Below, one piece after another: positions 25,914 to 50,567 of a DNA stretch of 64,000 nucleotides. The stretch is from the NCBI RefSeq assembly GCF_000146185.1, contig NC_012778.1:348501-412500 (forward strand), written 5' to 3'. The position numbers and the translations under genes are program-made. The stretch comes from [Eubacterium] eligens ATCC 27750 (lineage in GTDB: Bacteria > Bacillota > Clostridia > Lachnospirales > Lachnospiraceae). Each line of letters opens with the position of its first letter. Within the stretch, counting starts at the first letter, position 1. Below the pieces are notes generated by a model. It did no database searches and had not been told where the DNA came from. It saw only the letters and a list, made by a program, of their open reading frames with translations.

Positions 25914-27266
25914 ATGGATTCAATTAATATGTGCTACGAAATGTGTGATTATATAGAGCAGAATGGCATTGTGAAGCTGGTAGGAAATACAAGGCTCCGC
26001 GACAATCTTAAGAAGGAGTTTCTGCATTTTCTAATATATATATCAATGATAGATGAAAGGTACGGCGAGCAGGAAAAAGCATTTATAAAGAAGAAGCTGG
26101 GGTTTGAGGTCAGTGCCTTAATGGCGGCTGATATTAAGAACCGCAACATGCTTGGAGCAGGCTATATTACAAAAATGCCAGAGACATTTAAGTATTTTAT
26201 ACTTGCCAATGCAGGCCACAAGATTAAGAACGACAGATACGACAACAAAGAGGCGCGGACGCTGGCAGAAAGCTACAGGAAGCTCGGACAGGAATATCTG
26301 GCTGCGAATACTGAAAGCACCGAGGTCGAGATAAATGTTTTATCATCATACTGTGTGATGCTGGACGAGAATCTTAAATCATACGGTCTGCTGCGTCCTG
26401 ATTACAAGAGTGTGACAATACAGGCAGAGACAGAAGATGACGAAAAGCCGGACGCTGATGAACTAATTGCAGAACTTAATTCACTGACGGGACTTACTGC
26501 AGTTAAAGAAGATGTCAATGCACTTATTAATCTTCTTAAAGTTCAGAAAATGCGTGAGCAGATGGGAATGAAGCAGACAAGCGTCAACAAACACCTTGTA
26601 TTCATGGGAAATCCAGGAACAGGAAAGACGACAGTTGCAAGACTGCTTGCCAGAATATATAAGGCAATAGGGGCAATCTCAAAAGGACATCTTGTGGAAG
26701 TAGACCGTTCAGGACTTGTGTGTGGTTACATAGGTCAGACAGTGACGAAGACTGCAGAGGTAATAGAATCAGCACTTGGAGGAGTCCTGTTCATAGACGA
26801 AGCATATACACTTACTAATGGAAAAGGTCAGGGCGATTTCGGACAGGAAGCTGTAGACACATTATTAAAAGGAATGGAAGACCACAGAGATGATTTAGTT
26901 GTAATAGTGGCAGGTTATACAGAACTGATGGAGGAATTCTTAGATTCCAATCCGGGACTGCGTTCAAGATTTAATAAATTCATTAACTTCGAGGATTATA
27001 CAGCCGAGGAAGAGGTTGAGATACTTATAAACAACTGCAAGAAACAGGAATACATGCTTTCCCGTGATGCGCTTGAGGAAGCAAGAAGATTCTTTACAGA
27101 CCGGGTAGCCGATAAGCCAGAAGGCTATGCTAACGCAAGAGATGTAAGAAACTATCTCGAAAAAGCCATATCCAATCAGGCAACAAGGATAGTTGGACTT
27201 AAGGATGTGGATAAGAATATACTGGCGATGCTGGAGAAAGAGGATCTGGTAGGGATTGAGTTGTGA
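25914..27266 (+). CDS. CbbX/SpoVK-like AAA+ ATPase with helical N-terminal domain
   Basis: 450 aa. Residues 1-160 are a helical domain with acidic and Lys-rich helices, like the TerB-type or tetratricopeptide-like modules fused to such ATPases. Residues about 185-450 are the AAA core: Walker A GNPGTGKTT, Walker B GVLFIDEAYTL, sensor 1 VIVAGYTELM, and arginine finger NPGLRSRF. Relatives include CbbX (Rubisco activase), SpoVK and the type VII secretion ATPase EccA. No Rubisco or ESX gene is seen, so the remodelled partner may be one of the two upstream membrane proteins. The gap to the TPM gene is 31 bases. Confidence 0.87.
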   Translation: MDSINMCYEMCDYIEQNGIVKLVGNTRLRDNLKKEFLHFLIYISMIDERYGEQEKAFIKKKLGFEVSALMAADIKNRNMLGAGYITKMPETFKYFILANAGHKIKNDRYDNKEARTLAESYRKLGQEYLAANTESTEVEINVLSSYCVMLDENLKSYGLLRPDYKSVTIQAETEDDEKPDADELIAELNSLTGLTAVKEDVNALINLLKVQKMREQMGMKQTSVNKHLVFMGNPGTGKTTVARLLARIYKAIGAISKGHLVEVDRSGLVCGYIGQTVTKTAEVIESALGGVLFIDEAYTLTNGKGQGDFGQEAVDTLLKGMEDHRDDLVVIVAGYTELMEEFLDSNPGLRSRFNKFINFEDYTAEEEVEILINNCKKQEYMLSRDALEEARRFFTDRVADKPEGYANARDVRNYLEKAISNQATRIVGLKDVDKNILAMLEKEDLVGIEL

Positions 27267-27270
27267 CATA

Positions 27271-27497
27271 CGGGAGGTTGTGGCAGACGGACGCGGCAGG
27301 CGGGTGGATAGTGTCATTTTCAGACACGCTCTCGCTCGGTGAAAAACGCAGCTGTACTAAATTCACTGGTTTGCCGCATAAAATGCGGCTCCCAGCTCAT
27401 TAAGTGCAGGCGTTTTTCAACGGTCTGAAACTAACACTATCCACCCGACCGCCGCTCACTTCGCCAGCGCCTCCAGATGTCGCAAGCTCATCTGGAG
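27271..27497. repeat. Structured repeat element, copy A
   Basis: An imperfect palindrome centred on a core of about 145 bases. A perfect 14-bp terminal inverted repeat (27301-27314 with 27434-27447) continues outward with GCGGC/GCCGC (27293-27297, 27451-27455). Inside are GAAAAACGC/GCGTTTTTC (27341-27349, 27410-27418) and the hairpin GCCGCAT-AAA-ATGCGGC (27373-27389). A satellite hairpin CTCCAGATG/CATCTGGAG follows at 27471-27497. The 144 bases from 27303 differ from copy B at only five positions. It fills most of the gap before the histidine phosphatase gene; the rest (27498-27626) shows only a short direct repeat, GATGAAGTC (about 27530 and 27592). Confidence 0.85.
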
Positions 27498-27626
27498 GGG
27501 GAGTGGATTTTAGCGTGTAGGGAAGGTTTGATGAAGTCCAAAAGGGAAGCTGAAGCGTGGCGGATTGGACGTTGAAGCGGGGAGAGGGCATGATGAAGTC
27601 TAAAAAGGCAAGAGAGGAGAAACACG

Positions 27627-28163
27627 ATGGGAATAGTGTATTTTACAAGGCATGGTCAGACTGTCTGGAATGTTGAGAATAAGATATGTGGGGCGACGGA
27701 TTCGCCGCTCACAGAGTTGGGGCATGAACAGGCTGTAGAATTGGGGAAAAGAATTCTGTCAGAGGGAATACATATAGATGAAATCCTGTATTCGCCACTT
27801 ATAAGAGCGAAAGCTACAGCACTTCATGTATCTGAGATTACAGGAATACCAGCGCGCGAAGAGATAAGACTTAAGGAACAGAATTTCGGTAAATACGAAT
27901 CAACTCCAAGAGATGGAGAAGAATTTGCTAAAGCCAAATGTAACTTTATATGCAGCTTTGATGGAGGAGAGACAATGCTTCATCTTGCACAGCGCATTTA
28001 TAATCTGATTGACGATATAAAGGCGCAGCCTGATAAAACATATCTTTTAGTTGCACATAATGGAATTGCACGAATGGTAAAGTCATATTTTGAGGATATG
28101 GGAAATGAGGAGTTTTCGGCTTTTAAGATAAAGAATTGCGAGATATTGAAGTTTGAGTTTTAA
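27627..28163 (+). CDS. Histidine phosphatase family protein (phosphoglycerate mutase-like)
   Basis: 178 aa, cytoplasmic. The phosphohistidine motif YFTRHGQTVWN at the N-terminus, then TDSPLTELGHEQA, EQNFGKYE and VAHNGIARM (second catalytic His), define the branch that includes GpmB, CobC and broad-range phosphatases. The acid/base residue is probably the Glu in LKEQNFG. The substrate cannot be stated. The gene is flanked on both sides by copies of the same structured repeat in direct orientation, so it may have been moved or captured with them. AGAGGAG precedes the ATG. Confidence 0.88.
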   Translation: MGIVYFTRHGQTVWNVENKICGATDSPLTELGHEQAVELGKRILSEGIHIDEILYSPLIRAKATALHVSEITGIPAREEIRLKEQNFGKYESTPRDGEEFAKAKCNFICSFDGGETMLHLAQRIYNLIDDIKAQPDKTYLLVAHNGIARMVKSYFEDMGNEEFSAFKIKNCEILKFEF

Positions 28164-28171
28164 GATTGACG

Positions 28172-28400
28172 TCTGGGAGGTGGTGGCGGACGGACGCGGC
28201 GGGCAGGTGGATAGTGTCATTTTCAGACACGCTCCCGCTCGGTGAAAAACGCAGCTGTACTAAATTCGTTGGTTTGCCGCATAAAATGCGGCTCCCAGCT
28301 CATTAAGTGCAGGCGTTTTTCAACGGTATGAAACCAACACTATCCACCCGCCCGCCGCTTACTTCGCCCCCTCCCAGATGTCACAGGCTTATTTGGGAGG
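28172..28400. repeat. Structured repeat element, copy B (direct to A)
   Basis: Same layout as copy A. The outer arms TCTGGGAGG (28172-28180) and CCTCCCAGA (28370-28378) pair. A 22-bp inverted repeat with one mismatch (28196-28217 with 28337-28358) closes the core. The internal stem and the GCCGCAT hairpin are identical to copy A. The satellite hairpin CTCCCAGAT/ATTTGGGAG at 28371-28399 differs from copy A in both arms, so pairing is kept. Confidence 0.85.
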
Positions 28401-28450
28401 AGATGTGATGCCGGCAGGTTTACGACACCGTGCAGTGCTGAGAAAGCCAG

Positions 28451-28618
28451 CCGTGTTAATTATGTATATTCCCCGACACAGACCGTTGGAAAACGTCGGC
28501 ACTTAACGAGCCTGAGAAGCCGCGTAAAGCGGCGCACGACAAGGCGAGTTTAGTACCGTTACGTTTTCCACCGAGCGGGAGCGTGTCTGGGGAGGGAAAT
28601 ATACATAATTAACGCGGA
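28451..28618. repeat. Structured repeat element, copy C (inverted and diverged)
   Basis: In reverse orientation to A and B. The closing arms are new in sequence: GTTAATTATGTATATT (28455-28470) with its exact complement at 28598-28613. The core keeps CACTTAA(C)GAGC, GA(G)TTTAGTAC and CACCGAGCG(G)GAGCG, while its stem GGAAAACGT/ACGTTTTCC (28488-28496, 28561-28569) and hairpin GCCGC-GTAAA-GCGGC (28519-28533) differ from A/B by paired changes. This shows that the fold is conserved. Confidence 0.8.
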
Positions 28619-28649: not shown

Positions 28650-28678
28650 TAGACCGAAATATTACTTTGCGTTATAAT
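28650..28678 (+). promoter_or_regulatory. Probable promoter for the surface protein gene
   Basis: TAGACC (28650-28655), a 17-base spacer, TATAAT (28673-28678), 46 bases before the chosen ATG at 28724. It overlaps the longer in-frame TTG start, which argues against that start. Confidence 0.6.
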
Positions 28679-28723: not shown

Positions 28724-30151
28724 ATGTTTAATAAATCAATTATAAAAAAGGCAGCGGCGATAGCAGCAGTAATACTTGCAGTGACAGCACTTCCGACTAA
28801 TATGACGAAGGCAGATACACAAACATCAGGAAGTACCGTAAGCCAGACAACATCAGAATACACAGAAATCCGAACAGCGTCAGAACTTGTGGAAGCAGCT
28901 AAGAGTGCGTCAGGAAATTATAAACTGATGACAGATATAGATATGACAGGAGTTGAGTGGACGCCATGGGATTTTTCGGGAACATTTGACGGTAACGGAC
29001 ACAGCATACTTAACCTGTCAGTAAAGACAGTAAGCAAGAAGACAATGAAGACCTATGACGGCAACAGAAAAGAGTACAAAACATACGGCGCAGGCTTCTT
29101 TGGGGTGCTTACAGGTGCGAAAGTAACAGGACTGGATATATATGGAGCAAGAATTGAGATTACTACAACGGAACCATGTTTTGCGGCACCAATAGCAGGG
29201 CTTGCAGACGACAGCGACATATCAGACTGTATAATTAAGGATACATATGTGTCACTCACAGATTCAGCTAAAATGTGGGGAACAGGCGGAATCGCTGGAT
29301 TTGGAAGCGGCAATCTTGATAATATTACTACAGATGTGACACTTGTATGTGTAGATACAGACGCAGCGGTCAGGGACGAGCAGTTCATGGGAGGCGCGTA
29401 TGCAGCAGGTTTCCTTAATATAAGGAATTGTTCTATAACAATAGATGGATATGATTCAGACCACGGATATGTGCATGATGGCGGACTTGTCGGCATGTAT
29501 ATGGTATATCCATTGGAACTGTCAAAGACATATCAGGGCGAAGTGCTTAACAACAAAGTTAAGGGAATGATAACATTTTTCGAAGACAATACAGACCGCC
29601 GTGCATACTGTCAGGCAAATATGGGTGAGGTCATGAACTGGACATATGCATATTCAGGCTTCACATCAGATTTTAAGAGAAATGAGACATATGATTATTC
29701 AGTGACACTGCTTCCGGAAATGTGCAGCAATCCTTCATACACAGATGTAGTGACAGAAGCAACAGCATCAGACTTTGGATACACAACACACACCTGCAGT
29801 ACATGTGGCTACACATATTCAGACACTTACACAATACATGAGCATAAGGTCGACAGTTACAGCGTGGTAAAGGAAGCAGCCAGCACAGACAAGAAAGACG
29901 GAATAGAGGCAGGAACATGCAGCCTGTGCAATCAGACAGTTTACAGGGAATATGCTGCAAATGTAGTAACAGACGATAATACACAGGCAACAGACAATAA
30001 AGCATCAGGCACGGCTGTCAAAAAAGGAATGAAAGAAAGTACAGCAGTATTTGCAGTAATATTGGTGGTAATAGTTATTGTAATAATTATAACAGTAGTC
30101 ATGATGGTACAGAATAATAAAAGAAAAAGAAGATATAACAGACGCAGATAG
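28724..30151 (+). CDS. Secreted beta-helix-type surface protein with C-terminal membrane anchor
   Basis: 475 aa. The signal peptide is about residues 1-32 (MFNKSIIKKAAAIAAVILA...). The body has GLUG-like beta-solenoid strands (YKLMTDIDMTGVEWTPW, GTFDGNGHSILNLS, GAGFFGVLTGAKVTGLDIYG, GTGGIAGFGSGNLDNI). Near the C-terminus two CxxC pairs (CSTCGY, CSLCNQ) resemble the Cys-rich repeats of clostridial surface proteins. A membrane helix and the tail NKRKRRYNRRR anchor it. There is no sortase motif. Its role is unknown, possibly adhesion or a cell-wall function. A weak AAAGAGG ribosome site is present. Confidence 0.72.
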   Translation: MFNKSIIKKAAAIAAVILAVTALPTNMTKADTQTSGSTVSQTTSEYTEIRTASELVEAAKSASGNYKLMTDIDMTGVEWTPWDFSGTFDGNGHSILNLSVKTVSKKTMKTYDGNRKEYKTYGAGFFGVLTGAKVTGLDIYGARIEITTTEPCFAAPIAGLADDSDISDCIIKDTYVSLTDSAKMWGTGGIAGFGSGNLDNITTDVTLVCVDTDAAVRDEQFMGGAYAAGFLNIRNCSITIDGYDSDHGYVHDGGLVGMYMVYPLELSKTYQGEVLNNKVKGMITFFEDNTDRRAYCQANMGEVMNWTYAYSGFTSDFKRNETYDYSVTLLPEMCSNPSYTDVVTEATASDFGYTTHTCSTCGYTYSDTYTIHEHKVDSYSVVKEAASTDKKDGIEAGTCSLCNQTVYREYAANVVTDDNTQATDNKASGTAVKKGMKESTAVFAVILVVIVIVIIITVVMMVQNNKRKRRYNRRR

Positions 30152-50431: not shown

Positions 50432-50454
50432 ATTCATATAAAGAGACAAGTTAA

Positions 50455-50535
50455 TATGTTGGCAAAGTAGTCGAAAGGCTATGACGCAAAGCCAAGGGTC
50501 TTAACTGATTTTATCAGAATGACAGCCGGTTGCAT
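50455..50535 (+). promoter_or_regulatory. Cyclic di-GMP-I (GEMM) riboswitch aptamer
   Basis: Hallmark segments in order: GGCAAAG (50461), the GNRA tetraloop in TCGAAAGG (50471-50478), and the strongly conserved ACGCAAAGCC (50484-50493), followed by the P3 arm (CTGATTTTATCAG) and GACAGCCGG. These match the GEMM-I consensus. A terminator stem lies 30 bases downstream, so it probably controls transcription of the CAP-domain gene in response to c-di-GMP. Confidence 0.85.
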
Positions 50536-50567
50536 TACAATCAACGCAAATGATTAGTATTTTTCAG

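Follow-up and report, generated by a model that had tools for sequence, protein, structure and literature searches.

The window, a stretch of 64,000 nucleotides from the genome of Lachnospira eligens, contains three copies (A, B and C) of a structured repeat, and all three belong to one repeat family, designated here as E. The genes and features of the locus are the following:

25914..27266, plus strand: a gene for a putative AAA-type ATPase, named after its sequence motifs; its stop codon and the outer stem of A are 26 bases apart, and the boundary of 27271 given in the initial annotation is 4 bases away.
27293..27455, minus strand: copy A with its outer stem (arms 27293-27325 and 27423-27455; core 27316-27432; covariance model score 89.6 bits).
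27470..27498, spacer side of A: small hairpin CCTCCAGATG...CATCTGGAGG (family D2), with a counterpart at about 28370-28400 beyond B.
27627..28163, plus strand: putative histidine-phosphatase-type gene, named as in the initial annotation; its stop codon and the outer stem of B are 32 bases apart, and the earlier boundary of 28172 is 8 bases away.
28196..28358, minus strand: copy B, the left half of the B/C divergent pair (core 28219-28335; 83.1 bits; outer stem about 28196-28228 and 28326-28358, set by register with A).
28359..28450, no strand: spacer between B and C, containing the hairpin also present behind A.
28451..28617, plus strand: copy C, the right half of the B/C pair (outer stem 28451-28483 and 28585-28617; core 28474-28594; 91.7 bits).
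28650..28678, plus strand: promoter-like TAGACC-N17-TATAAT of the next gene, located between C and that gene, its sequence recognised by eye.
28724..30151, plus strand: the gene to the right of C, starting with ATG at 28724; the list of open reading frames extends it to TTG at 28667, across the -10 box.

Selection acts on the minus strand for A and B and on the plus strand for C, and the search of the window with the covariance model gave no fourth copy at an E-value of <= 10. Stop codons closely precede A and B. The promoter-like box between C and the next gene indicates that C is situated upstream of the promoter and outside the leader. B and C constitute one divergent pair, and A is half of a second pair. 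The relative G523 has the plus partner of A at the corresponding position, and in the window this partner has been lost. Behind A, at 27522-27612, tandem-like segments (GATGAAGTCCAAAAGGG...) are located, and another relative, G527, appears to have an extra copy. The sole match of the window with Rfam at gathering score is a c-di-GMP-I riboswitch (50451-50537, plus strand, 71.2 bits).

The initial annotation described A and B as direct copies with five differences in 144 bases. The two copies are 903 bases apart and have five mismatches in the best 144-base block, in agreement with this description, and 14 mismatches in 202 bases. Their likeness looks like the result of a local duplication or gene conversion. 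It was also borne out by sequence comparison that C is inverted and diverged with respect to A and B, and the internal stem changes between A/B and C from GAAAAACGC/GCGTTTTTC to GGAAAACGT/ACGTTTTCC, as described. The closing stem, reported as wholly replaced yet paired, indeed has 33-base arms that are 88% complementary in A and 85% in C. A special link with the phosphatase is not supported: B and C are absent from the relative G520, which has the phosphatase gene. The phosphatase is incidental to E.

The cores of the window copies start with CAGACC (CATACC in B) and end with GTGTCTG. The core contains a stem that covaries, an internal loop of conserved sequence (CACTTAAnGAGC / GAnTTTAGTAC) and, at the apex, a hairpin whose sequence varies. 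Its 3′ segment, GAGCGRGAGCGYG, is asymmetric and can fold into a small hairpin. The core comprises about 90-120 bases and the arms about 20; in G016, the genome richest in E, the element is about 190 bases long and its foot is CTAGC or GTAAC. Selection on a folded strand, which had been proposed from the three copies, is upheld by their folding and by larger alignments. The folds of A and C are more stable than those of shuffled sequences (z of -9.67 and -9.07, respectively), and for neither copy did any of 200 shuffles reach the same stability. In an alignment of 18 copies from 10 genomes, chosen from 27 rows after removal of A (the twin of B), of five near-duplicates and of three rows lacking a well-formed 5′ half, standard pairs occupy 91.6% of the cells and double changes are seen in 19 of the 31 pairs. 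On four of the five measures used, none of 500 shuffles reached these values, and on the fifth 3 did; in slid controls the standard pairs fall to 29-48%. An alignment of 86 distinct further copies, which was fitted to the covariance model and hence leans toward it, gave 93.1% paired cells (30-47% when slid); on its weakest measure, 23 of 500 shuffles reached the observed value. Double changes occur there in 24 of the 31 pairs. None of the outcomes named in the initial annotation as refuting its interpretation was observed. The covariation exceeds that of both shuffles and slid controls, and the structure of E is under selection.

The core pairs of 127 distinct copies include 144 G-U and 51 A-C cells. 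Of the G-U cells, 52 belong to the pair that closes the small hairpin, and 27 of the A-C cells come from a single position beside an indel. When counted once per label and pair (97 labels, each public contig being taken as its own genome), there are 182 G-U and 72 A-C, or 107 and 32 without the two special pairs. The greater tolerance of the core pairs for G-U than for A-C indicates that E functions through the modelled strand, either as RNA or as single-stranded DNA. Several copies are rearranged. In L023 and L034 (G066), the 5′ half of the core is deleted and a near-perfect outer palindrome is retained. Tandem repeats of the 3′ half of the element with the 3′ arm lie behind copies in L286-L288 (G458), and short tandem repeats of the 3′ end (AACCTTTG-like) are located behind some copies in L102, L105, L110 and L120 (G016).

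As had been expected in the initial annotation, many further copies exist in related genomes. The covariance model detected E in 64 of 392 genomes of the order, representing 31 of 173 genera, and all 64 belong to the window's own family; the number of other families sampled was not broken down, and the survey scored ten candidates per genome, so that its copy numbers are lower bounds. Of 391 genomes of the class, 3 matched a strict sequence pattern, and these belong to the same family; the pattern missed known carriers, so that E may also occur elsewhere. The pattern used first matched 15 genomes, some by chance (L016, L017 and L025 lack the fold of the element by eye). The genome of L. eligens contains 20 copies at an E-value of <= 0.01. 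The copy number ranges from one or two per genome up to the 344 + 350 = 694 pattern matches, their folds not confirmed one by one, in the 3.3 Mb of G016, where the reversed control gave 0. The only plasmid record with E is the L. eligens megaplasmid, one copy being 100% identical over 201 bases. No match of E was found in phage records, and three pattern matches in IMG/VR had no match with the model and were taken as chance. Pattern matches are also present in public bins titled Muribaculum or Muribaculaceae, of another phylum (e.g., L144, L156, L173, L186, L196 and L205); our guess is that these bins are mislabelled. The cores are similar within a genome and different between genomes. Such homogeneity within genomes, together with the patchy occurrence between them, means that spread within genomes must have occurred, and the near-identical copies of G434 agree with this.

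For 10 of 12 L. eligens loci examined, one or more of three relatives have E with corresponding flanks on both sides. Orthologous copies were compared only at those loci of the relatives which hold E, in 27 comparisons that include copy C of the window, the 278-kb plasmid site and one replaced copy. With respect to G523 (13 comparisons), the core halves differ by 7.2% and 6.5%, the arms by 17.3% and 13.6%, the apical part by 25.8% and the gene-side flank by 9.1%. With respect to G527 (14 comparisons), the corresponding values are 4.2% and 5.7%, 12.3% and 7.0%, 15.8% and 7.1%. The divergence of the spacer side, which includes rearranged sequence, amounts to 29.7% and 43.3%, respectively. Core and gene-side flank are equally well conserved among relatives, whereas the spacer behind the core is not. 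In some copies the apical part, and in one case the entire copy, seems to have been exchanged for that of another copy, a pattern suggestive of gene conversion.

The dispersal of E could be that of a selfish non-autonomous mobile repeat of the REPIN or bcr1 kind, moved in trans by a putative enzyme recognising the folded core on one DNA strand. Divergent pairs would then arise from the mode of insertion, and conservation would reflect slow replacement. The range of copy numbers, from one to 694 pattern matches, and the cores alike within a genome and different between genomes, near-identical in G434, are consistent with this explanation, and the strand bias of the core fits a single-stranded DNA hairpin as well. 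REPINs are likewise inverted doublets with compensatory changes, according to the accessible part of their description (PMC3116915). Besides, a TnpB-like protein is encoded beside copies at two places of G016 (L110, 6728-8032, plus strand; L106, 1-300, minus strand), the second being a piece of a relative cut by the contig end; the match with Cas12f1-like_TNB was just above the cut-off and that with OrfB_IS605 was below it. However, a transposase-like family accompanying copies in several genomes was not found among the 40 largest clusters of 1892 open reading frames, viewed by eye, or in a scan of six representatives, and a linked autonomous partner was rejected as a candidate. The Y1 transposase (PF01797) is present in 13 of 20 carrier genomes and absent from the other 7, and 0 of 20 Y1 loci hold E at an E-value of <= 0.1 (mostly within 1.5 kb on each side), which rules out Y1/RAYT mobilisation as a general rule. 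The retention and conservation of orthologous copies in three species and the unrelated spacers of the pairs, described below, also tell against a selfish repeat. We regard this origin as possible, with well under even confidence, and as about as likely as the role in cis that is proposed below. The G434 copies (L274-L283) are located within a mosaic of other repeated intergenic hairpins, and that genome has ten matches with Y1 transposases.

The mutual arrangement of the copies is strict. In about 598 kb of G016 with 124 copies, all 26 neighbours within 700 bp, on contigs picked for holding copies, follow the (-,+) order with their 3′ ends outward. In other genomes, 30 of the 34 neighbours within 500 bp are (-,+), two are (+,+), two are (-,-) and none is (+,-), a count that includes non-independent ortholog pairs and leaves out three further (-,+) pairs; of the four exceptions, two are identical tandem duplicates. 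Four (+,-) neighbours were found at 632-676 bp in these genomes. In 20 stretches of G016, close pairs lie at both ends of the spacer that separates two transcription units, irrespective of gene direction. Some G016 pairs more than 900 bp apart enclose a gene (L105, L107, L118 and L120), and single copies of E are common. The spacers of 24 G016 pairs have only scattered matches of 15-33 bases in common; the pairs there are therefore not copies of one unit, and the pair as a single mobile unit is ruled out in this genome.

The promoter signal lies on the gene side of E. In G016 (n = 44), the mean promoter score between E and the gene start is 10.73, against 9.93 on the reverse strand (p 3.7e-5) and 9.86 on the spacer side (p 4.8e-5). 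This is not the placement of a leader or riboswitch, between promoter and gene, and such a role was rejected on the basis of these 44 cases and of the window (28650-28678). One copy in L107 ends about 46 bases ahead of an open reading frame, leaving little room for a promoter. A promoter of its own upstream of E was also rejected, since there are no conserved -35 and -10 boxes in G016.

The outer stem varies from copy to copy yet pairs, with a median of 23 aligned bases, including 5 of the core match, and 95% complementarity in 127 copies. In orthologs both sides change together, e.g., from GTGTAGTGTA/TACACTACAC to GTATAGCATA/TATGCTATAC at the 1529-kb site, and at the A site of G520 the entire stem is different and still perfect. 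This stem, counted as covariation in the initial annotation, bears no sense-strand signature, in contrast to the core. G-U and A-C mismatches number 65 and 64 overall, a ratio without sense-strand bias; by genome, the counts are 44 and 34 outside G016 and 5 and 25 in G016. A larger set from G016 leans in the opposite direction to the core, with 12 G-U and 38 A-C, 14 of the 38 being in the foot region, and 12 and 24 without that region. Arms derived from the insertion site were considered and rejected, since the longest nearby match averages 8.7 bases versus 8.4 in shuffled sequence; near-identical G434 copies sharing the same arms also counter such an origin.

BIMEs have a proposed role at the DNA level where supercoils gather at the ends of transcription units. 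In a similar way, the palindrome of E might extrude as a cruciform or bind a topoisomerase or nucleoid protein at the supercoiled ends of units. This would account for the like treatment of 5′ and 3′ unit ends and for outer stems that show paired changes between orthologs and no overall strand bias. A symmetric cruciform does not predict the strong strand bias of the core, however, and the fixed polarity of the pairs is left unexplained, so a boundary acting at the DNA level seems quite unlikely.

Another explanation concerns the gene ends. In G016, E begins <= 40 bases past the stop codon at 17 of 57 gene ends, and the same proximity is seen for A and B in the window. With little room for another terminator, E read antisense, from the gene side, might terminate the adjacent gene; the antisense foot in G016 (GCTAGTTTATTGG) is mildly U-rich, and the outer-stem mismatches of this genome lean antisense. 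Nevertheless, E is equally placed upstream of promoters, no U-tract follows the window copies, and the elaborate sense-strand core would be needless for termination. No consistent U-tract after E was seen by eye on either strand; longer ones occur in the sense direction in G434. An intrinsic-terminator scan did not separate the groups (4 of 57 gene ends with E versus 7 of 146 controls) and so carries no weight either way. We consider the function of an antisense terminator improbable.

E has no match in Rfam at gathering scores, and only chance miRNA matches appear at an E-value of <= 10, in line with the initial annotation, which recognised no named family. It was not possible to find a description of the family in the open literature, subscription papers and supplementary motif tables being outside the search; E may sit unnamed in a motif list. 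To our knowledge, few bacterial repeats are this abundant, structured and strictly oriented. REPs and REPINs, as presented in the accessible parts of the sources, have many extragenic copies and form hairpins (PMC3116915, PMC3733652), and DNA supercoiling is among the roles proposed for REPs (PMC3733652). As far as these sources go, E resembles the REPIN/REP-BIME systems with RAYT in its many extragenic copies, inverted doublets and hairpins with compensatory changes. Unlike REPs, which are of 20-40 bp and carry a GTAG or CGTC tag, it has an intricate core and the greater length seen in G016; unlike those of a REPIN, the spacers of E pairs are unrelated and measure from 150 to more than 1000 bp, and no examined Y1 locus contains E. 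The repeats bcr1-bcr18 of Bacillus cereus are also intergenic, bcr1-3 are MITE-like, and about half of the copies are transcribed in UTRs or operons, according to the part of the source available (PMC3446304). E is found in another taxon, forms divergent pairs of fixed polarity that are absent from the bcr description in that part of the source (PMC3446304), and lies mostly outside leaders, as follows from the promoter signal on its gene side. The MRSC-65-2 motif, a mobile or repeat sequence candidate with a covarying long stem and dozens of copies per genome, is a single stem with a UYCCGG repeat in the portion of the report available (PMC11109978), whereas E has several helices and internal loops. 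Like the structured non-coding RNA families of Rfam, E combines covarying helices with conserved unpaired segments; unlike riboswitch leaders, it is located upstream of the promoter signal.

Three observations favour a role in cis: orthologous copies are constrained, the polarity is fixed, and the promoter signal is on the gene side. Mirror-image pairs of fixed direction between operons suggest that E marks or protects operon borders. Our tentative proposal, held with less than even confidence, is that Lachnospiraceae keep E, a dispersed repeat that is structured and non-coding, in cis as a polar boundary of transcription units. Polymerase leaking from one unit into the spacer would copy the more distant member of the pair in sense orientation, and the folded core, probably bound by a putative host factor, would stop or insulate the polymerase before the neighbouring unit. 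Two one-way elements back to back would guard both neighbours, whatever the orientation of the genes. A one-way boundary acting in the sense direction accounts jointly for the polarity, the place and the strand bias of the core. It does not explain the outer-stem statistics, and a simple reading of E as a sense RNA does not predict the lean observed in G016. The single copies, the gene-enclosing pairs more than 900 bp apart and the tight spacing in L107 count against such a boundary, and the patchy distribution and near-identical G434 copies look like those of a spreading repeat.

If E is a mobile repeat, it would represent a large unnamed family with a putative mobilising enzyme and a test case for folded repeats fixed at gene borders. 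If it is a polar boundary, a major gut family would have an unrecognised device keeping operons apart, and an orientation-dependent part would become available for genetic design. It is a less likely and broader possibility that one-way, structure-dependent boundaries read by a putative host factor stand genome-wide at operon edges, up to several hundred per genome, as an analogue of insulators; if true, this would separate the transcription units of these bacteria from the drifting spacer DNA between them.
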